Shown here one piece after another: positions 11,104 through 27,702 of a stretch of DNA of 64,000 nucleotides; position 1 is the first letter of the stretch; each line of letters starts with the position of its first letter. Origin of the DNA: Maribacter sp. (GTDB taxonomy: Bacteria > Bacteroidota > Bacteroidia > Flavobacteriales > Flavobacteriaceae); assembly GCA_020629285.1 (NCBI GenBank), contig JAHDDP010000007.1, positions 184,304-248,303 of the forward strand, in the 5' to 3' direction. The notes under the pieces were generated by a model. That model saw only the letters and a program-made list of their open reading frames with translations. It did not search any database and was not told the origin of the DNA. Made by a program: the position numbers and the translations under genes.

Positions 11104-11250
11104 AGTGTTTATAATATATATAGTTAATAATGGTATTACATGTGGTTAACAAGGCGTTACAAGATTGCACTTACCTTGAGATATCTATAAAGATAGTAGA
11201 CATTTAATAGAAACGGCTGCCTAGCACCGCATTTGGCTTTTTACCAAATA

Positions 11251-11279
11251 AAAAGTCCGTCATTGCTGACGGACTTTTT
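11251..11279 (-). terminator. Rho-independent terminator of the cold-shock gene
   Basis: The perfect stem AAAAAGTCCGTCA / TGACGGACTTTTT with loop TTGC lies immediately downstream of the cold-shock protein stop codon. Confidence 0.92.
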
Positions 11280-11284
11280 GAAGT

Positions 11285-11479
11285 TTATTCTATAACTCTA
11301 ACGTTAACTGCGTTTAAACCTTTTTTTCCTTGGGTTAGTTCGAATTCTACTTCATCGCCTTCGCGAATCTCGTCGACTAATCCTGAAATGTGAACGAAAT
11401 GATCGTTCGTTGAACCTTCTTCCGTAATAAAGCCATAGCCTTTTTCATCATTGAAGAATTTAACTGTTCCTGTACTCAT
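11285..11479 (-). CDS. Cold-shock domain protein (CspA family)
   Basis: A 64-residue single cold-shock domain with both RNA-binding motifs: RNP1 KGYGFIT (residues 13-19) and RNP2 HFVHIS (27-32). The start STGTVKFFN and the end GLNAVNVRVIE are canonical. The protein binds single-stranded RNA/DNA in the cytosol and acts as an RNA chaperone. Length is normal. It is monocistronic with its own strong terminator and a long AT-rich upstream region (about 235 bases to the next gene), in which a structured 5' leader typical of csp genes could lie, although I cannot show one. Confidence 0.95.
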   Translation of the reverse strand: MSTGTVKFFNDEKGYGFITEEGSTNDHFVHISGLVDEIREGDEVEFELTQGKKGLNAVNVRVIE

Positions 11480-11717
11480 AAATGTAATATAATTTGATAT
11501 TAATAATTACTTGTGAAGTTGCAATTATAATGCCAAAAATTAAAAACTATCTTAATTTTATTTTTTTATACCAGCTGCATATGAGGCAATGGGTATTACA
11601 TATCATATAGAAAACTTACCGATCCAACCCTAATATAATACCCATTTTACAAGGAATTTTAAAAAAATTAGGATCACTTAAATAAATGCTTTATTTTAGT
11701 ATCGTAAAATAATAAAC

Positions 11718-11915
11718 GTGACGACCAAACCTAACTTTGTGCTCTTATCCGAAAACAATACTTACTACGTTGAGTACCTTATTGGGCATCTTGTTTTAGC
11801 GAACAGTATTACGGAAGCTGTTATATTTGAATCACAATCTCAAGCCATAAAGTTTCAAAAATACCTGTACAAGAATTGTAGTGTTCGCTTTTCTGTAAAT
11901 ACCTTTATCGCTTAA
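11718..11915 (+). CDS. Small hypothetical protein (65 aa)
   Basis: A 65-residue frame opening with GTG 11718 (MTTKPNFVLLSENNTYYVEYL) and ending IA at TAA 11913-11915. The pattern of short strands (FVLLSENNTYYVEYL, LVLANSI), a helix (SQSQAIKFQKYLYKN) and a last strand looks like a small folded domain rather than a chance frame. No family is recognised. It lies between the cold-shock gene and the FKBP lipoprotein gene. Confidence 0.5.
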   Translation: MTTKPNFVLLSENNTYYVEYLIGHLVLANSITEAVIFESQSQAIKFQKYLYKNCSVRFSVNTFIA

Positions 11916-11989
11916 TCTATACCCTTTAAAAAAAGATTGTAATTCCATTTACCATCATTCATTACACTAACTTTTCAAAAATTCTTATC

Positions 11990-18522: not shown

Positions 18523-18777
18523 TTACTTCTCCGCTAGCTTGTCATCTATTATAGCCATGGCATCATTTACTGTTTGCATTTTTTCCATGTCTTCATTTTC
18601 TAGCCGGATGTCGAAAGCATCTTCTACATCAAGCACAATGTCAACAATATTTGCAGAGTTGATGTTTAAATCGTTCATGAAGTGACTTTCCTGTTCAATG
18701 TCAGTAATCGCTACGTCTTCGGGAAGATAAATTTTAATAATCTCTTTCAGTTTTTGGTATTTTTCTTCTTTAAGCAT
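18523..18777 (-). CDS. Acyl carrier protein of the polyketide operon
   Basis: A four-helix acyl carrier protein of about 84 residues (LKEEKYQKLKEIIKIYLPED, DIEQESHFMNDLNINSANIVDIVLDVEDAF, EDMEKMQTVNDAMAIID). The 4'-phosphopantetheine serine is Ser45 of the longest frame, but the usual DSL reads NSA, while the following helix (D50-D57) keeps the acidic face that partners recognise. It is last in the seven-gene operon, 47 bases after the ketosynthase. Start taken at ATG 18777 (MLKEEK); ATG 18789 is an alternative. It would carry the growing acyl chain for the ketosynthase, dehydratase and reductase of this operon. It is unlikely to be the housekeeping AcpP, which normally keeps DSL. Confidence 0.88.
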   Translation of the reverse strand: MLKEEKYQKLKEIIKIYLPEDVAITDIEQESHFMNDLNINSANIVDIVLDVEDAFDIRLENEDMEKMQTVNDAMAIIDDKLAEK

Positions 18778-18823
18778 ATATAAGTTCAATTAAAAATACT
18801 ATTTGGTATAATTATGGTTTTTA

Positions 18824-20101
18824 TTATTCTTTGGTAAATGCCTTAAATATAACACATGCATTTACATCTCCGAATCCGAAACTAGCTTTTGCGATTACTT
18901 TAGAGGCATGCTTTTTTGTTTTCCGTGGTATGCAAGAATCCGATATCAGCTTTGAAATCTCCGGATGAATATCTTCACAATTTACATTCTTAAAAACTAC
19001 TTGCTCTTTAAACTGTAATATGGAAGCAACACTTTCAATACTACCAGCTGCAGCCAAACAATGACCCACCGAACCTTTAAATGAATTGATGTACGGAAAA
19101 TCTTCATGTGCTCTGCCTAACGCTTTACTCCAATTTTCTATTTCTAGTCCGTCTTTAGATGTTGCGGTCAAATGACCGTTAATAACATCTATATCTGAAG
19201 ATTTAATACCCGCATTGGTCACCGCGTTTCTAATGCAACGTTGCACCGCCATACTATTTGGTGCGGTCATGGACCCTTGCCCAATTTGTCCGCCACTATT
19301 GATTTCTCCTCCCAATACTTCTGCATATATATGGGCACCGCGCTTTTCTGCGCTTTCCAAGGACTCTAATACCAGTGCTCCTGCTCCACTACCAGGTATG
19401 AATCCACCAGCTGTGGCACTCATAGGTCTACTTGCCTTGGTTGGATTGTCGTTATATCCGCGAGGTAAAATTCGCATAGCATCAAAACCACCCCATACAT
19501 ACGGTCCACTATCACTACAACTACCTGTCAAGATAATTTCGGCTTTCCCTTGACTAATTCGGTCATAAGCCATTAGTATACCCTCGGTACCCGTGGTACA
19601 TGCTGCGGAGTTCGTGGTAACTTGATTTCCGCAACCTAACAAACCACCTAAATAGGCACTTATACCACTTGCCATGGTCTGTATTACCGAAGTACTGCCT
19701 AGTCTTCGCACATTGCCCTCATCAATTAAATGAATGGCTTCCCTAAATTTATCGACGCCTAAAATGCCTGTACCAAAAATGATTCCGCGGTCCCAACTTG
19801 GCTCATCTGTTGTATTTTTCTCTAAACCGGCATCTTTCCAAGCATCCATTCCAGCGATTACACCATACACGATTCCCGTTGCATTCAGCCCTCTGCGCTC
19901 TAAAGGCGTAAAGTAATTATCTATAAGCTTATCTTTTACCAAAGGTTCTCCCGCTACTTGACAACCAAAACCAAGCTTCTCTAAATTTGGTTGATGCCGT
20001 AATCCGCTTTTACCATCTAGCAAAGCATTTGTAAAATCAGTAAGTCCCACAGCGTTTGGCGCACATACGCCCAACCCCGTAATTACAACGCGTCTATTCA
20101 T
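18824..20101 (-). CDS. Beta-ketoacyl-ACP synthase (KAS II / FabF-like)
   Basis: A 425-residue thiolase-fold ketosynthase with an intact Cys-His-His triad: Cys168 in NSAACTTG, His310 in NGHLTATS and His347 in SVGHCLAAAG. The N-terminus RRVVITGLGVCAPNAVG and the glycine-rich GGFIPGSGAGALVLE are typical of KAS II. The first His motif reads NGHLTAT instead of NAHGTST, which separates it from housekeeping FabF and fits a secondary-metabolite branch. It condenses malonyl-ACP with an acyl chain. It overlaps the upstream dehydratase gene by 8 bases and is followed by the ACP. Chain-length factor (KSbeta) is absent, so it would work as a homodimer. Confidence 0.93.
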   Translation of the reverse strand: MNRRVVITGLGVCAPNAVGLTDFTNALLDGKSGLRHQPNLEKLGFGCQVAGEPLVKDKLIDNYFTPLERRGLNATGIVYGVIAGMDAWKDAGLEKNTTDEPSWDRGIIFGTGILGVDKFREAIHLIDEGNVRRLGSTSVIQTMASGISAYLGGLLGCGNQVTTNSAACTTGTEGILMAYDRISQGKAEIILTGSCSDSGPYVWGGFDAMRILPRGYNDNPTKASRPMSATAGGFIPGSGAGALVLESLESAEKRGAHIYAEVLGGEINSGGQIGQGSMTAPNSMAVQRCIRNAVTNAGIKSSDIDVINGHLTATSKDGLEIENWSKALGRAHEDFPYINSFKGSVGHCLAAAGSIESVASILQFKEQVVFKNVNCEDIHPEISKLISDSCIPRKTKKHASKVIAKASFGFGDVNACVIFKAFTKE

Positions 20102-20543
20102 TTGCTATACCTATCATGCCCGCTAAAACTCCTTTACAGACCAGTTTATCGTCTTCATTATACATTTTTACTTCACATTTTATTTTCTGAAATCTAAAGT
20201 AGACTAACTCCGAAACCACCCTAACACGTTCACCAGGAAAAACGGGTTGCAAAAATTCCATTTGTGAGCTGCTCATACCTATCGCCATATTCCCTATCTC
20301 AGACTTTTTCCCTAATAGATATATACCCAAACATACCAAACCGATTTGTGCACAACATTCAGTCAAAATCACTCCCGGTGTAACAGGATTGTTTTTGAAA
20401 TGACCTTTATAAAAATCTGCATCGGGCGAAAACCTATAAGTACCCTCAGCACCTTTATCATCTACATGCAAAATCTCATTTACAAAAAGAAATGGTTCCG
20501 TGTAGGGCAAACTATTCAATATCCAATTATAAGATTCTTTCAT
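20094..20543 (-). CDS. FabZ-like 3-hydroxyacyl-ACP dehydratase (hotdog fold)
   Basis: 149 residues with the FabZ active-site arrangement: His48 in FYKGHFKNNPVTPG and Glu62 in ILTECCAQ, spaced as in FabZ/FabA enzymes. The N-terminal SLPYTEPFLFVNEI matches the family's PHRYPFLLVD strand. It removes water from 3-hydroxyacyl-ACP to give the trans-2-enoyl product. Start ATG 20543 lies 12 bases after the reductase stop; its end overlaps the ketosynthase start, so it is translationally coupled within the operon. Confidence 0.9.
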   Translation of the reverse strand: MKESYNWILNSLPYTEPFLFVNEILHVDDKGAEGTYRFSPDADFYKGHFKNNPVTPGVILTECCAQIGLVCLGIYLLGKKSEIGNMAIGMSSSQMEFLQPVFPGERVRVVSELVYFRFQKIKCEVKMYNEDDKLVCKGVLAGMIGIANE

Positions 20544-20555
20544 CAGCTATATAAA

Positions 20556-21338
20556 TTACATCAAACTTTCGCCGCCATCAACTTTTATGACGGTTCCCGT
20601 AATCCATTTTGCTTCATCCATAGTTAACAAATACACTGCATTTGCAACGTCTTCGGGCATAGTCAGTCTGTTCTGCGGATTTCTTTTTAATGCATTTTCT
20701 TTTATTCTCTCGTACCCGGGAATCATAGATAAAGACTTTGTCATAGTAATACCTGCTTGTATGCAATTTGCCTTTATACCCATTGGCGCAAACTCCAAAG
20801 CAATACTTCTGGTCAACGCCTCCAATGCTACTTTAGCCACTGAAACTGCACTGTAATTTGGTAATGCTTTTGTATTCCCCTCACTTGTAAATGATATAAT
20901 TCGAGCATCATCAGCAAACAAATCAGCCATAGTCAGTGCTTTGGTCCAATCGTACAAGCTCAACGCCATAGCATCAAAAGTGATTCTAAAATCGGTATCG
21001 ACCAAAGTTGGTCTATTTTCAGAATACATGGGCTTCAACGTTCCTTTTGCAATACTATGAATCATCACTTTTATCTGATGTCCTTCTGGTAACTGTTGCT
21101 GTATATCTGAAATGATACCTGCCCGTTTATCAGCATTCAATACATCTACGTTCATTGCAATCAACTCATTTCCGTAAGAGCGAATTTCATTGAAATCTTT
21201 TTCTATCTCATCCATTGCCGCACGGCGATCACGATGCATGATTATAATATGATAGCCATGACTCGCCAATTTCTTTGCCGTAGCTAGACCAAGTCCACTA
21301 CTTCCTCCTAATATTAAAGCCCAATAGGTATTTTTCAT
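20556..21338 (-). CDS. FabL/FabI-like enoyl-ACP reductase (SDR superfamily)
   Basis: A Rossmann SDR with cofactor motif GGSSGLG near the N-terminus and IHSIAKG, the counterpart of VHSIA in enoyl reductases. The catalytic pair is spaced Tyr-x6-Lys (PNYSAVSVAK), as in FabI/FabL, not Tyr-x3-Lys as in ketoreductases; the following ALEALTRSIALEFAP is close to FabL of Bacillus. It ends KVDGGESLM. It should reduce enoyl-ACP with NAD(P)H, but SDR specificity is hard to predict. Start taken at ATG 21338 (MKNTYWALIL); ATG 21362 would overlap the type III synthase by 7 bases. No ketoreductase is encoded in the operon, so that step would come from housekeeping FabG or from this enzyme. Confidence 0.87.
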   Translation of the reverse strand: MKNTYWALILGGSSGLGLATAKKLASHGYHIIIMHRDRRAAMDEIEKDFNEIRSYGNELIAMNVDVLNADKRAGIISDIQQQLPEGHQIKVMIHSIAKGTLKPMYSENRPTLVDTDFRITFDAMALSLYDWTKALTMADLFADDARIISFTSEGNTKALPNYSAVSVAKVALEALTRSIALEFAPMGIKANCIQAGITMTKSLSMIPGYERIKENALKRNPQNRLTMPEDVANAVYLLTMDEAKWITGTVIKVDGGESLM

Positions 21339-21355
21339 AATTGTTATTTGATTAT

Positions 21356-22411
21356 CTACCATTCTATCAATACCCGTTGTGCCGAAAAACCGGGACCAAA
21401 ACTCAATATCAAACCTTGCTCACCTGCAGCTATATCTTTTTCTAAAAACCGCTCTAAGACGTATAAAACAGTAGCACTGCTCATATTACCATAAAGACGT
21501 AATACCTCTCGGGTATCATCAATATTTTTACCTAGAGCACCAAATAGCGATTCTACCGTTTGTACTATTTTCTTTCCTCCGGGATGAAAAATTAAATGGT
21601 CCACATTTTTGATGTCACTTCCATACTTTTCCAAAAACGGATGCACAATATCCCCAAAGTGATTAGAAATTGTTTCTGGTACCGCCGGATCAAGAATCAT
21701 TTTTAAACCAAGATTGGTTAAATCAAACCCCATCATTTGTGTAGCATCCTTAAAATGATACATTTCTTCTCCTATTATCTTGGGACCTACAGCATCTTCT
21801 TCAGATGACAACAACACGCAGGCTGCACCATCACCAAAAATAGCGGCACTTACCATATTTGCCATTGAATAGTCTTGTAACTGAAATGTTGCTGTGGGAC
21901 TCTCAACAGAGACCAATGCAATACGCTTACCTGGATTTGATTTTAAGAAGTTATGGGCATAAATAAGTCCTGATACTCCAGCTGCGCAACCCATCTCTGT
22001 TACAGGAAGCCTTACCACATCTTGCCGCATTCCCAATTCGTTTATTAAATAGGCATCTAAGGACGGAATCATAATACCCGTACAACTTACCGTAATTATA
22101 TAATCAATGGAAGAAGCATCCCAATCACTTTTCTTTAATGCGTTTCTGAGTAAATTAGCACCCATGCGCTTAGCTTCCTTACTGTAAATTTTGTTTTTAT
22201 CTTCAAAGGAAGTCGTTATGAATACGTCTTCAGGTGGCATAATAGAATAGCGCTTATCTACAGCAGCACCCTCAAAAATCTTTACGACTTTTCTAGAGAA
22301 ACGCTCCTCTTGTCCGCTTAGCCAGAATTCTACAAGTGGTATAATATCCTTGGTATCTCTAGAATACGGTGGCAGTTCTTTGGTAACACTAACAATTCTT
22401 GTATGATTCAT
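21356..22411 (-). CDS. Type III polyketide synthase (chalcone synthase-like)
   Basis: A 351-residue homodimer-type synthase with the full Cys-His-Asn triad: Cys142 in TEMGCAAG, His276 in IFHPGGKK and Asn309 in LYGNMSSAT, and the closing loop LSFGPGFSAQ (GFGPG equivalent SFGPG). These enzymes extend acyl-CoA or acyl-ACP starters with malonyl-CoA without an ACP and cyclise the chain to pyrones, resorcinols or phloroglucinols. It sits between a methyltransferase and a complete set of fatty-acid-type enzymes, so its starter is probably a custom acyl chain built on the operon's ACP. Similar flavobacterial clusters are flagged as type III PKS loci; I know of no established product for this gene order. 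Confidence 0.94.
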   Translation of the reverse strand: MNHTRIVSVTKELPPYSRDTKDIIPLVEFWLSGQEERFSRKVVKIFEGAAVDKRYSIMPPEDVFITTSFEDKNKIYSKEAKRMGANLLRNALKKSDWDASSIDYIITVSCTGIMIPSLDAYLINELGMRQDVVRLPVTEMGCAAGVSGLIYAHNFLKSNPGKRIALVSVESPTATFQLQDYSMANMVSAAIFGDGAACVLLSSEEDAVGPKIIGEEMYHFKDATQMMGFDLTNLGLKMILDPAVPETISNHFGDIVHPFLEKYGSDIKNVDHLIFHPGGKKIVQTVESLFGALGKNIDDTREVLRLYGNMSSATVLYVLERFLEKDIAAGEQGLILSFGPGFSAQRVLIEW

Positions 22412-22435
22412 AGTTATTCTTAATCTTCAATCTAC

Positions 22436-23143
22436 CTATTTCTTTTTTAAAATCCATACATATCTAAAAGCCCATTTCCATTTAATGATATGAGATGCAT
22501 TGGTAACCTGGGTAGCAAAATGCTGTAATTCTTCTTTTTTAAATGCCCTACGGATGGATAACAGTCCGTCTTTCTTTGCAATTTTCGTTTTAATGAAAAA
22601 GAAACTGAATGCTTTAAATAAATAATAGGCAACGGGACTACGTTCCAAATCATTTATGACCACCCCTAGTTTTGCGATTACCACAAACCGATTCACAAAC
22701 TTAATTACGCCTTCATCCGAAAAATGATGCAAGGTCAAAGTCGTCATTACCACATCAACATCCCATCTAGAAAAATCAGCACTTAAGATGTCGGTATTCA
22801 AGTAACTAATTTCAGGGTAATCAGCCGAATATTGCTTTGCTAATTGTAAACCCTGTTCATTAAAATCTACACCAATCAACTTAAGGGTTACATTCCGCTT
22901 TCTTGCTTTTATAGCTAGCTTTCTAAGCATAGTTCCTTCCGCACAACCCATGTCTAAAATCGTATACGATTCTTTACCTTTCTTTTCAAGTAACTCAAAT
23001 ACAGCATCTAAGGTAATATTATAGCCCCCAAGCAACTTATTTACCCTATTAATGTCTTGTAGTATCGTTTTCAACTCATCAGTGGTACCTGAAAAGGTAT
23101 CCATAATCTCCACTTCACTACTTCTTTGTGTAAAATCTACCAT
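22436..23143 (-). CDS. Class I SAM-dependent methyltransferase
   Basis: 235 residues with Rossmann motif I TILDMGCAEG (61-70), an acidic residue at the end of strand 2 (LIGVDFNEQG), post-motif DVVMTTLTLHHFSD and ENR/NDL-type later motifs (VVINDLERSP). This fits methyltransferase families acting on small molecules (type 11/25). The C-terminus is basic and aromatic (KWKWAFRYVWILKKK), possibly a membrane or lipid contact. The ATG overlaps the stop of the FAD oxidoreductase by one base (TAATG). It probably O- or C-methylates the product of the type III synthase downstream. Confidence 0.88.
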   Translation of the reverse strand: MVDFTQRSSEVEIMDTFSGTTDELKTILQDINRVNKLLGGYNITLDAVFELLEKKGKESYTILDMGCAEGTMLRKLAIKARKRNVTLKLIGVDFNEQGLQLAKQYSADYPEISYLNTDILSADFSRWDVDVVMTTLTLHHFSDEGVIKFVNRFVVIAKLGVVINDLERSPVAYYLFKAFSFFFIKTKIAKKDGLLSIRRAFKKEELQHFATQVTNASHIIKWKWAFRYVWILKKK

Positions 23144-24264
23144 TACGATATTAGTTCTCCATGGGTTTTAGAAATAATAAACTTCAATAATGATTTCGAT
23201 TTTCCGACGGATTTAATTCCCAAGGATACTAATCTTTTATTCATTAAAATGCTCTGTAATTTTCTACCGAACCACAAACGCTTACCAAAAGCTTTTGACC
23301 AAGCCTTTTTATAATCCATTTCCAATTCATTGCGATTATAACCAGATTCGTTAACATATTTTAAAATCAACTCTGAAGCTATTTTTGCACTATGAATAGC
23401 CATGGCCATACCATTACCACAAAGTGGATGTATAAGCCCTGCCGTATCACCACACATTAGCATGTGATCTACCACATTATCTTTTTCGTCAAATGCTATT
23501 TGAGCAATGGTCATAGGTTTCTCAAAAACAGGAATTGCATTTGACAGAAACTCTTTTAAAAATGGATTTTCTGCAACCACAGCGGTATTGAAACTTTGAA
23601 TATCCTTGTATTCTTTAAAACTTTCATAATTAACTAAATAACAAAAATTGACCGCTCCGGATTCCGTTTTTGAGAGTCCGCCATAACCACCATTAAAATT
23701 GTGTAAAGCCACTACATCTTCCTGAAAATCTTCTAGTTCATAATGTGCCTTAACAGCTAACCATGATTGCTTTTTCTTACTGAAAGCCCTATCTAAATTC
23801 TTATCTAAGACCGATCGTTTACCATAAGCACCTATGGCTATTTTAGAACAATAACATCCAGACTTCGTTTTGATGGTAAAAACGTCTTCTTTGAAAACTG
23901 TTTCAATCACTTTTTCAAAATAAAACCGTACACCAAGTTCCTGTGCTCTTATGTACAACAATTGATCAAGCACATATCTACTTATACCAAATCCGCCCAA
24001 GGGTAAATCGGTCTCGGCAATATATCCGTCTGCTGTACTTATTTGAAATTGTGAAATATCTTTAGCCCCTTTAGCCTTTAAGTCAACTCCTAATCGTTTT
24101 AAATACGGTTCAATTTCTTTAGAAACATATTCACCGCAAACCTTATGATGTGGATATTGCTGCATTTCAATAACGGCGACATTCAATCCCTCTAAAGCCA
24201 AATGAATAGCAGCAGTCAACCCTGCCAATCCACCTCCAATAATTAGTATGCCATGCTCTTTCAC
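23143..24264 (-). CDS. FAD-dependent oxidoreductase, geranylgeranyl reductase-like
   Basis: 373 residues with the FAD-binding GGGLAG (10-15) near the N-terminus, HHKVCGEYVS (a geranylgeranyl-reductase/halogenase-group signature, 39-48) and the second flavin motif MCGDTAGLIHPLCGNGMAMA (270-289). The family reduces isoprenoid double bonds or hydroxylates/reduces lipid-like substrates. First gene of the operon. The start is GTG 24264; an out-of-frame ATG-CAG-TGA mini-frame overlaps it. Only 26 bases separate the start from the upstream terminator stem. The role as a tailoring reductase or hydroxylase of the polyketide is inferred from context. Confidence 0.88.
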   Translation of the reverse strand: MKEHGILIIGGGLAGLTAAIHLALEGLNVAVIEMQQYPHHKVCGEYVSKEIEPYLKRLGVDLKAKGAKDISQFQISTADGYIAETDLPLGGFGISRYVLDQLLYIRAQELGVRFYFEKVIETVFKEDVFTIKTKSGCYCSKIAIGAYGKRSVLDKNLDRAFSKKKQSWLAVKAHYELEDFQEDVVALHNFNGGYGGLSKTESGAVNFCYLVNYESFKEYKDIQSFNTAVVAENPFLKEFLSNAIPVFEKPMTIAQIAFDEKDNVVDHMLMCGDTAGLIHPLCGNGMAMAIHSAKIASELILKYVNESGYNRNELEMDYKKAWSKAFGKRLWFGRKLQSILMNKRLVSLGIKSVGKSKSLLKFIISKTHGELIS

Positions 24265-24290: not shown

Positions 24291-24314
24291 AAAGCCCTGC
24301 AAATGCAGGGCTTT
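24291..24314 (-). terminator. Rho-independent terminator between the OmpA-like gene and the polyketide operon
   Basis: The perfect stem AAAGCCCTGCA / TGCAGGGCTTT with loop AA, followed by a T-run on the minus strand. It lies 30 bases after the OmpA-like stop and 26 bases before the first gene of the polyketide operon. Confidence 0.92.
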
Positions 24315-25725: not shown

Positions 25726-27702
25726 TCAGTAAGCAATCAGTTCCTTCAAATCAGATTCAAATCTAGACTTGGCAAGGTATTGCTGTTCTAAGTTAGCATC
25801 AAAAGGAATAGGAGTTTCCAAACTACCTACTCTTTTAATGGGTCCATCTAAATACTCGAAGCAATTTTCCATTACCATAGCAGAAATATCACTGGCAATA
25901 CCACCAAACAAGCTATCTTCTTGAAGAATAATCAATTTTCCTGTTCTTACGACTGAATCATAAATAGCTTTGGTATCCAAAGGCTGTAAGGTTCTTAAAT
26001 CTAAAAGGTCTGCTCGTATTTCTGGATTATTCTCCAAAGCTTCTAATGCCCAATGCACACCAGCACCATAGGTTACAATGCTAACCTGATCACCTTGTTT
26101 TAAAAGACTTGCCTTACCTAATGGTAACGTATAGTAATCTACAGGGACTTCTTGATAGATACTTCTGTACAATGCCTTGTGCTCAAAAAACAGAACAGGA
26201 TTCGGATCTTCTATTGCAGTGGTCAATAAACCCTTTGCATCATAAGGAAATGCAGGATAGACTACTTTTAAACCGGGAGTTTTAGTGAACCACGCTTCAT
26301 TTGTTTGTGAATGAAATGGTCCGGCAGCAACACCACCACCACAAGGCATTCTAATTACAACATCCGCTTTTTCGCCCCAACGGTAATGACTCTTCGCTAA
26401 ATAATTAACTATAGGGTTAAATCCGCTACTTGCAAAATCTGCAAATTGCATCTCCACAACCGCCTTCATTCCGTTAATGGATAATCCCATAGCTGCCGAT
26501 ACAATTGCCGACTCACAGATGGGTGTATTACGTACGCGCTCTTTGCCAAAGTCATTTACAAAACCGTCGGTTATTTTAAATACACCACCATATTCTGCAA
26601 CGTCTTGCCCCATGATGACAAGATTGTCAAATTTCTTCATAGACTGTCGCAACCCTTCAGAAATAGCATCGACTAGACGAATATTGGTTACAAATCTACT
26701 TGGTCTAATTTCTTTTAAATCAAATTTTTGATATACCTCACTTAATTCTTTACTTTCATTAGGTGTAATCGTATCTTCACTAAAGGCTATTCTTAGATGT
26801 TCATCTATTTCAGCCTGAATATCTGCCTTGTAATTGGCTATACTTTCTTCAGTCAACAACTTCTCGTCAATAAGATATTGGGTATAATTCTCTAAGGGAT
26901 CTTTCTCTGCCCAAGTATCTAAAAGCTCTTGAGGTACATATTTTGTTCCGCTTGCTTCTTCATGCCCTCGCATGCGAAAAGTTTTAAATTCTAACAACAC
27001 CGGTCTTGGATTTATTCTCATATCCCTTACCAAATGAGAGACTTTAAAGAAAACTTCTAGGACATTATTACCGTCAATGATATGGGATTCCATTCCGTAA
27101 GCGACACCTTTATCCGCAATATTTTTACAACGAAATTGCTCTTCTACAGGAGTTGATAATCCATAGCCATTATTCTCCACACAGAAAAGCACGGGTAAAT
27201 CCCACACAGAGGCCACATTCAGCGCTTCATGAAAATCTCCTTCGCTGGTTCCTCCTTCCCCTGTAAATACAGCGGTTACCTTCTTTTCCTTTTTTAATTT
27301 ATGTGCAAGTGCTATACCATCTGCCACCCCTAATTGCGGACCTAAATGTGATATCATCCCTATAATCTTAAAATCTTGTGTGCCAAAATGAAAACTACGA
27401 TCTCGCCCTTGGGTGAATCCGCTCGCCTTTCCCTGCCATTGCGCGAATAATCTATACAACGGAATCTCTCTTGTAGTAAAAACTCCGAGGTTTCTATGCA
27501 TGGGAAGTATGTATTCCTCACTACTTAAGGCAGAAGTAACACCAATGGAAATTGCTTCTTGACCAATGCCACTAAACCATTTAGAAACCTTGCCTTGACG
27601 TAGTAAAATCAACATTTTCTCCTCGATCATACGAGGTTTAAGCATTGATTTATAAAGTGTTAACTTAACATCTTGAGCTACTTTAAAATCGGTGTAATCC
27701 AT
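25726..27702 (-). CDS. 2-oxoacid dehydrogenase E1, fused alpha and beta subunits (branched-chain type)
   Basis: 658 residues. The alpha part (1-310) has the thiamine diphosphate motif GEGGTSEGDFHEA...NVASVWDLPVLFCVENN (148-178) and the loop RSFHFG. The beta part (from about 330) has MGQDVAEYGGVFKITDGF, FADFASSGFNPIVNYL and a transketolase C-terminal domain. This fused form is the usual E1 of the branched-chain 2-oxoacid dehydrogenase complex in Flavobacteriia; it decarboxylates 2-oxoisovalerate-type acids and acylates E2, supplying branched acyl-CoAs for iso-fatty acids. E2 and E3 are not in the window. Confidence 0.92.
   Translation of the reverse strand: MDYTDFKVAQDVKLTLYKSMLKPRMIEEKMLILLRQGKVSKWFSGIGQEAISIGVTSALSSEEYILPMHRNLGVFTTREIPLYRLFAQWQGKASGFTQGRDRSFHFGTQDFKIIGMISHLGPQLGVADGIALAHKLKKEKKVTAVFTGEGGTSEGDFHEALNVASVWDLPVLFCVENNGYGLSTPVEEQFRCKNIADKGVAYGMESHIIDGNNVLEVFFKVSHLVRDMRINPRPVLLEFKTFRMRGHEEASGTKYVPQELLDTWAEKDPLENYTQYLIDEKLLTEESIANYKADIQAEIDEHLRIAFSEDTITPNESKELSEVYQKFDLKEIRPSRFVTNIRLVDAISEGLRQSMKKFDNLVIMGQDVAEYGGVFKITDGFVNDFGKERVRNTPICESAIVSAAMGLSINGMKAVVEMQFADFASSGFNPIVNYLAKSHYRWGEKADVVIRMPCGGGVAAGPFHSQTNEAWFTKTPGLKVVYPAFPYDAKGLLTTAIEDPNPVLFFEHKALYRSIYQEVPVDYYTLPLGKASLLKQGDQVSIVTYGAGVHWALEALENNPEIRADLLDLRTLQPLDTKAIYDSVVRTGKLIILQEDSLFGGIASDISAMVMENCFEYLDGPIKRVGSLETPIPFDANLEQQYLAKSRFESDLKELIAY

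Follow-up and report, generated by a model that had tools for sequence, protein, structure and literature searches.

A window of 64,000 nucleotides from Maribacter sp. (the whole stretch of DNA analysed; contig JAHDDP010000007.1, positions 184,304 to 248,303) carries a probable operon of seven genes around a type III polyketide synthase (PKS), in a genome assembly of 3.6 Mb that is 83% complete. Seven open reading frames on the minus strand span positions 18523-24264 of the window, which confirms the initial observation. In the order of transcription, they encode a flavin adenine dinucleotide (FAD)-dependent oxidoreductase, a methyltransferase (MT), the PKS, a short-chain dehydrogenase/reductase (SDR), a dehydratase (DH), a ketosynthase (KS) and an acyl carrier protein (ACP), with gaps of -1, 24, -7, 12, -8 and 34 bases. 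An earlier note on this DNA had described tightly packed genes of these families, and the open reading frames, the Pfam matches and the gaps of -8 to +34 bases bear it out. The first gene (23143-24264) encodes the FAD enzyme, a member of the geranylgeranyl reductase (GGR)-like/monooxygenase superfamily, which matches Pfam FAD_binding_3 above the cut-off (39.4 bits) and TIGR02032 below it (116 bits against 158.8). The class I S-adenosylmethionine-dependent MT (22436-23143) is PRK06202-like, with 44.7 bits to Pfam Methyltransf_25 and 132 bits, below the cut-off of 243, to NCBIfam NF004851. The PKS (21356-22411) has Pfam Chal_sti_synt_N/C matches and the residues Cys142-His276-Asn309. The SDR (20556-21362) is FabL-like and a predicted enoyl-ACP reductase with Y170-x6-K177; FabL is its top match both in NCBIfam (162 bits, cut-off 328) and in the PDB (3oic, 102 bits). 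Then come a FabZ-like DH with His48/Glu62 (20094-20543; Pfam FabA-like, 54.7 bits), a FabF-like KS with Cys168-His310-His347 (18824-20101; Pfam ketoacyl-synt N and C; TIGR03150, 270 bits, below 494) and an ACP whose Ser45 is preceded by Asn44 (18523-18789; Pfam PP-binding, 21.8 bits, barely over the cut-off of 20.8). For every one of the seven proteins, at least one fitting Pfam family is matched above its curated cut-off. The operon proteins are divergent family members, as no NCBIfam match listed attains the curated cut-off. Co-transcription of the seven genes is suggested by their spacing, and the operon is real and conserved, and probably functional. A terminator-like hairpin with a T tail (24291-24314, minus strand; 10 pairs, six of them GC; a consensus match only) lies between the FAD gene and an OmpA-like gene upstream of it. 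A sigma-70 consensus scan, which misses other promoter types, returned 23 promoter-like sites against 22.9 in shuffled sequence, and no promoter is claimed.

Gene order was compared across Bacteroidota, as had been proposed for this locus. Among 103 distinct loci (80 named and 23 others; L109 and L111 were dropped as copies of L043 and L062, and L122 as lying outside the clade), 81 carry the complete set of seven, on a single strand and in identical order, a degree of conservation far removed from chance. Of the others, 12 are without the SDR alone, one (L126) is without the DH alone, and contig ends truncate nine. L129 was counted as lacking the SDR, its SDR match lying 3.4 kb off on the opposite strand. 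The KS and ACP matches of Maribacter litopenaei look split or doubled and the FAD match of Maribacter halichondriae looks split (L103, L099), which may reflect decay or mistakes in sequencing. The nearest named relatives of the present genome are Maribacter species, whose PKSs are up to 96% identical. A PKS at 65% identity or more is present in 41 of the 120 genomes of the family sample (the present one included); the other PKS matches are one genome at 34% and, among those listed, proteins at 20-30%, mostly of ketoacyl-ACP synthase III (KASIII)-like length. A relative of the PKS (E <= 1e-25) is present in 131 of the 296 genomes of the phylum sample, 25 of them in the operon clade (at least 67%) and the others at 37% or less, and the order sample added two genomes with 60% relatives. 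Carriers outside the family are few (G199, G255, G365, G471, G485 and G486, and, found through the KS search, G493, G517 and G583).

The operon also keeps a fixed address. An OmpA-like lipoprotein gene lies on the same strand within 1.5 kb upstream at 63 of the 72 named loci whose upstream sequence is long enough, an E1 dehydrogenase-like gene within 4.5 kb upstream at 63 of 69, and a convergent TerC-family gene within 1.5 kb of the ACP gene at 49 of 70. Ten family genomes without the operon retain parts of this address. One is a natural empty site (L200, 8467-8536), where the TerC and OmpA genes stand 68 bases apart; another (L208) keeps an intact SDR alone at the operon address (11156-11950). 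L201 and L209 retain the OmpA side, and the other six operon-less genomes retain the E1-like gene, five of them with a dioxygenase-like neighbour. These remnants suggest an old locus, inherited mainly by descent and lost piecemeal. In the window, the upstream E1 gene (25726-27702) is a fused gene with Pfam E1_dh and transketolase domains. It might supply branched primers if its product were a branched-chain keto-acid dehydrogenase; yet 10 of the 12 operon-less family genomes searched for an E1-like gene have one as well.

The operon is a composite of two modules, a PKS-MT-FAD core and an ACP-KS-DH-ER cassette (ER, the enoyl reductase predicted for the SDR), each of which also occurs apart. The gene set that was first read as one hybrid system is indeed coupled in one operon, but it combines modules with separate occurrences, and a KS and an ACP accompany a similar core in sphingomonads too. 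Contexts of the core were examined in 34 of the 106 non-clade Bacteroidota genomes with PKS matches. MT homologues (>80 bits) lie near the PKS at 14 of these 34 loci and FAD homologues at 11 (nine above 200 bits, two weak at 30-33 bits). No KS, DH or ACP beside the core PKSs was matched at E 1e-4, a threshold that a divergent ACP could escape, as the sphingomonad ACPs score 21-24 bits. At 12 of the 34 loci, an ICMT-type methyltransferase gene lies within 375 bases of the PKS, and all three tested match Pfam ICMT. PKS-MT-FAD sets are carried on plasmids of Paracoccus, Roseomonas and Mesorhizobium, and Sphingobium indicum has PKS-FAD with a convergent MT. The operon MT and FAD enzyme are homologous to their core-operon counterparts, as compared in Bacteroidota and Alphaproteobacteria only. 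Median identity within the clade (24 rows) is 73% for the PKS, 51% for the FAD enzyme and 44% for the MT; to the core operons, it is 29% (11 rows), 39% (nine rows) and 30% (11 rows), respectively. The PKS is thus the best conserved of the three within the clade, yet no closer than the others to the core operons. Seven of the nine Bacteroidota core rows cluster with the operon rows in the FAD tree (98/97), and this cluster excludes the alphaproteobacteria. The counterpart of this grouping, imposed as a constraint on the weakly resolved MT tree, was not rejected by the approximately unbiased (AU) test (p-AU 0.146).

The cassette was followed by its KS, a close relative of which is present in 11 of 159 genomes of the class. 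Stand-alone cassettes, in which the KS is accompanied by ACP and DH and in four cases also by ER, were found at five loci (L172, L173, L176, L177 and L178) in four genomes. No type III PKS lies in the stretch seen at these five loci; in one of the genomes, G218, a different contig carries an ICMT-linked PKS. A gene of phosphopantetheinyl transferase (PPTase) type belongs to all five groups, four times over the Pfam cut-off and once (L176) 0.1 bit under it. The L177 cassette also has a KASIII-type gene, and in L178 a PglD/hexapeptide-type gene adjoins the DH.

A similar arrangement is found in sphingomonads. In Novosphingobium pLA3 (L182), ACP-KS-PKS-FAD is accompanied by a nearby MT on the opposite strand, and Sphingobium yanoikuyae pKN1 (L184) has ACP-KS-PKS-MT-FAD; like the operon, both clusters join an ACP, a KS and a type III PKS with a FAD enzyme and an MT. 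Unlike the operon, neither has a DH match, and SDR genes occur only some 3-4 kb off on the opposite strand. On a hidden Markov model (HMM) of the operon KS, the sphingomonad KSs score 88 and 91 bits, compared with 529-760 for the KSs of Bacteroidota cassettes and 201-206 for the additional KS of L174 and L175; on the ACP HMM, their ACPs score 21-24 bits against 68-114. Since these KSs lie so far below the Bacteroidota cassette KSs, a KS and an ACP were apparently joined to the core twice, the sphingomonad pair by independent recruitment. The absence of a DH would fit a KS whose product, beta-ketoacyl-ACP, is passed to the PKS, as is implied by the title of a paper on germicidin synthase (cited in PMC6274091).

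Catalytic residues, which had been read as intact in the window, are conserved among orthologues. The PKS triad C142-H276-N309 is identical in 97 of 97 distinct orthologues, and the KS has C168 in 93 of 95 and H310, K342 and H347 in 90 of 95, the remainder being gaps. The PKS belongs to the type III class by this triad and by a chalcone synthase (CHS) fold, with Z 34-38 over 328-342 residues in the 50 structural matches listed, and the ring-forming enzyme matches chalcone synthase models. Its nearest solved relatives by sequence are PKS11 (174.9 bits) and CylI (125.8 bits), which tie as the nearest folds of the model (Z 38.0 and 37.4). The DpgA model NF042429 gives 185.5 bits, short of its cut-off of 425. 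At the ArsB/ArsC switch position, Phe229 is found in 97 of 97 operon PKSs, and Trp in 14 of 14 core PKSs and 19 of 20 other Bacteroidota PKSs. The equivalence of positions was assigned by our reading of HMMER alignments and of the nine-residue spacing to CHS G256/F265.

The cassette comprises four discrete proteins, namely ACP (88 residues), KS (425), DH (149) and SDR (268). The Y-x6-K spacing is that of enoyl reductases among SDRs. S160, Y170 and K177 are present in 87 of 87 SDR orthologues, so that the FabL motif is invariant and no beta-keto reductase (KR) is recognised in the operon; the SDR stays below the NCBIfam FabL equivalog cut-off (162 of 328 bits) and matches FlxB at 92 bits, below 340. 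The DH has H48 and E62 in 93 of 94 orthologues, with one gap. The KS has NGHLTAT in place of the usual NAHGTST motif, and the TIGR03150 equivalog cut-off (270 of 494 bits) separates it from housekeeping FabF. In five of five near-complete relatives searched, a second FabF-type protein, 35-37% identical to the operon KS, is encoded elsewhere. No full-length second KS was found in the present genome; because the assembly is 83% complete, absence of FabF is not claimed, and the five relatives were checked instead. The same genome has a KS-like match (G000:C72:488-1273) within an open frame of 1456 residues, possibly of type I PKS or polyunsaturated fatty acid (PUFA)-synthase-like kind. Asp-Ser is usual at the phosphopantetheine site of ACPs. 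Here, Asn44 and Ser45 are each present in 90 of 90 orthologues, and this invariant Asn-Ser is possibly linked to a dedicated PPTase. A PPTase-type gene, by motif, overlaps or abuts the ACP gene at 21 of 95 operon loci, including those of Christiangramia, Salinimicrobium and Salegentibacter, which indicates that the ACP is meant to be loaded. Ten of ten such genes tested match Pfam ACPS above the cut-off, as does that of L179. None of the Maribacter loci has a PPTase-type gene beside the ACP; M. sedimenticola (G075, L043) has one PPTase-family gene, on a separate contig from the operon. The private fatty acid synthase (FAS)-like set of the first description is therefore present as KS, DH, optional ER and ACP but incomplete, because the seven genes include no KR, malonyl-CoA:ACP transacylase (MCAT) or KASIII. 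For these functions, the operon would borrow from the housekeeping FAS.

Several known systems share parts of this design. When expressed in a heterologous host, planctomycete PKSs whose operons also contain MT and FAD genes yielded pentadecyl- and heptadecylresorcinols; the same paper leaves the role of the planctomycete FAD enzyme unsettled and describes hidABC of picocyanobacteria, assigned to hierridin B (PMC10896814). The proposed starter of HidC is a C14 acyl-ACP (PMC8086630). The make-up of hidABC recurs in the operon, where the type III PKS adjoins MT and FAD oxidoreductase genes. This likeness is one of gene content, taken from published descriptions; gene order differs, and three genes are named in the portions describing the hidABC and planctomycete operons, with no KS, DH, ER, ACP or PPTase among them. 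It had been stated that type III PKSs normally need no ACP or fatty-acid partners, and an ACP partner is indeed unusual. Nevertheless, it is not contrary to the class, since ArsB/ArsC, germicidin synthase and SCO7671 are described as accepting acyl-ACP, and germicidin synthase also beta-ketoacyl-ACP by the title of a cited paper (PMC6274091). In the ars operon (ArsA-D) of Azotobacter vinelandii, a FAS likewise hands acyl-ACP to type III PKSs (PMC6274091), although that FAS is ArsA with its own ACP domain, whereas the Maribacter operon has four discrete type II-like proteins together with MT and FAD genes. No type I FAS is encoded in the operon. ArsA is such a type I FAS, and germicidin synthase, an acyl-ACP user of Streptomyces which unlike the proposed pathway makes pyrones, draws on the housekeeping FAS and not on an operon-borne set. 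The ring of dialkylresorcinol (DAR)/flexirubin compounds is made by a DarB-type KASIII-like enzyme and not by a type III PKS; no DarB model is among the 21 families matching the operon KS or the eight matching the PKS. The cylindrocyclophane pathway (CylB ACP, CylD/CylH PKS, CylI type III PKS) resembles the operon in a free-standing ACP and elongation ahead of a type III PKS, and differs in its type I PKSs, halogenase and dimerising enzyme, with no FabZ/FabL-like set named in the account used (PMC8086630).

We propose that the composite operon encodes a carrier-fed pathway to a phenolic lipid, to which we give a probability of about 0.58; within it, we infer the chain hand-over, the ring type, the order and site of tailoring and a location in the membrane. 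The housekeeping FAS would supply the acyl-ACP primer and the beta-keto reductase, and elongation by the operon KS, DH and usually ER would proceed on the ACP of the operon, which a PPTase, either dedicated or shared, would convert to the holo form. The PKS would then receive the chain from this ACP, either as acyl-ACP or as the beta-ketoacyl-ACP that the last KS turn leaves unreduced, extend it with malonyl-CoA and cyclise it, probably to an alkylresorcinol-type ring. Hydroxylation by the FAD enzyme and methylation by the MT would give a phenolic lipid bearing hydroxyl or methoxyl groups, perhaps a hydroquinone or quinone. This proposal draws on the gene order kept in 81 of 103 loci, the PPTase gene by the ACP, the extra KS, the core homologues, the planctomycete resorcinols, the sphingomonad parallel and the acyl-ACP precedents. 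The link first noticed between a private FAS-like set and a type III PKS, with tailoring by MT and FAD enzymes, is conserved across Flavobacteriaceae.

Several observations weigh against the proposed phenolic-lipid pathway. First, a history of the PKS shared with the core was rejected: constraining the operon PKSs with the core PKSs to match the FAD grouping lowered the log-likelihood by 60.3 (p-AU 0.00142), with the caveat of long branches. The PKS may provisionally be regarded as having been replaced in a core operon when, or before, the cassette joined. A grouping of the operon PKSs with ICMT-linked PKSs was not used because, with one unrooted shape for the three clades, it depends on the midpoint root; only the AU result is retained. 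The ICMT label of the ten PKSs in the tree was set before testing, and the neighbourhood check then confirmed 10 of 10. Second, the SDR is absent from 12 of 94 uncut loci and the DH from one, so the whole cassette is not always needed, and L174 and L175 carry FAD-MT-PKS-ER-DH-KS with no ACP match beside the KS. Third, FAD homologues are not bound to PKSs. A search for them matched 27 plasmid records, of which eight loci were opened; two of the three best, in Bernardetia (39% identity) and Hymenobacter (35%), have no annotated PKS within 6 kb. Finally, the PKS model is only fair (predicted local distance difference test score (pLDDT) 74.8, with loops 173-191 and 223-240 under 50), and the ArsB/ArsC switch position does not distinguish the ring types. 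Prediction from the ArsB Trp281/ArsC Gly284 switch was therefore dropped, since the residue is Phe here, Trp in PKS11, a pyrone maker, and Leu in CylI, a resorcinol maker.

The ring may instead be a pyrone. The PKS would lactonise a tri- or tetraketide to an alkyl-alpha-pyrone, which the MT would O-methylate, and the FAD enzyme would oxidise the side chain. The top-scoring solved relative, PKS11, is an alkylpyrone synthase, and this too counts against a phenolic product, although the resorcinol synthase CylI lies just as close in structure (Z 37.4 against 38.0). The operon PKS also scores higher with the ten ICMT-linked PKSs (166-213 bits, 29-35% identity) than with the 14 core PKSs (97-157 bits, 27-35%). 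The pairing of a PKS with an ICMT-type methyltransferase recalls BpsAB of Bacillus, which make alkylpyrones. However, the MT and FAD enzyme belong to the PKS-MT-FAD core, and the tested operons of that make-up are described as giving resorcinols (PMC10896814); a hydroxylase partner would also fit a phenol better. We consider the pyrone rather unlikely, with a chance of about one in four.

Still less probable is an independent acyl pathway, for example to a special fatty acid for another lipid, encoded by ACP-KS-DH-ER and merely co-located with PKS-MT-FAD. The five stand-alone cassettes with no type III PKS in the stretch seen, and the operon-less relative that keeps the SDR alone, would suit it, but the overlapping genes and their fixed order across the family count against it, as does the pairing of a differently derived KS and ACP with a similar core in sphingomonads. 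The FAD enzyme has a well-defined AlphaFold2 model (pLDDT 92.1), whose nearest folds are flavin enzymes at Z 35-36.6, mostly halogenases (PltA, ChlB4, Mpy16 and Bmp2); lower-ranked folds include p-hydroxybenzoate hydroxylase (PHBH)-type aromatic hydroxylases (Z about 32) and a GGR-like protein (Z 32.7). A halogenated phenolic lipid made with a FAD halogenase is nevertheless very improbable, and this role was rejected, because W-x-W-x-I-P, the flavin halogenase motif, occurs in 0 of 96 FAD orthologues, GGYxGLxK is found in 71 of 96, and the fold is common to many monooxygenases. On Hymenobacter swuensis pHsw1 (L181), a FAD relative adjoins isonitrile synthase and TauD-type dioxygenase genes, with no PKS.

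Within the carrier-fed phenolic-lipid pathway, a stricter form is conceivable, though we hold it only tentatively. The PKS would have turned into the last, ACP-bound module of a private type II FAS, accepting its starter solely from the unusual Asn-Ser ACP of the operon and making no further use of the acyl-CoA pool; the starter would be beta-ketoacyl-ACP produced by the KS, because the operon has no KR; the arrangement would have arisen again in sphingomonads from another KS. Type III PKS clusters account for 9% and 10.74% of predicted clusters in two surveys of Flavobacteriaceae, which places them among the commoner kinds, yet our literature searches found no product assigned to them. As the earlier note had supposed, no published product for this gene set was found in the open-access PMC literature, and the operon is a widespread and apparently uncharacterised variant of the PKS-MT-FAD kind. 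If the proposed pathway is true, about a third of the sampled genera would have, at a conserved position, a locus for one family of lipids whose chain is selected by a private carrier. The rewiring of a CoA-type enzyme to a carrier protein could then be traced by comparing the operon with the core operons and the sphingomonad clusters.

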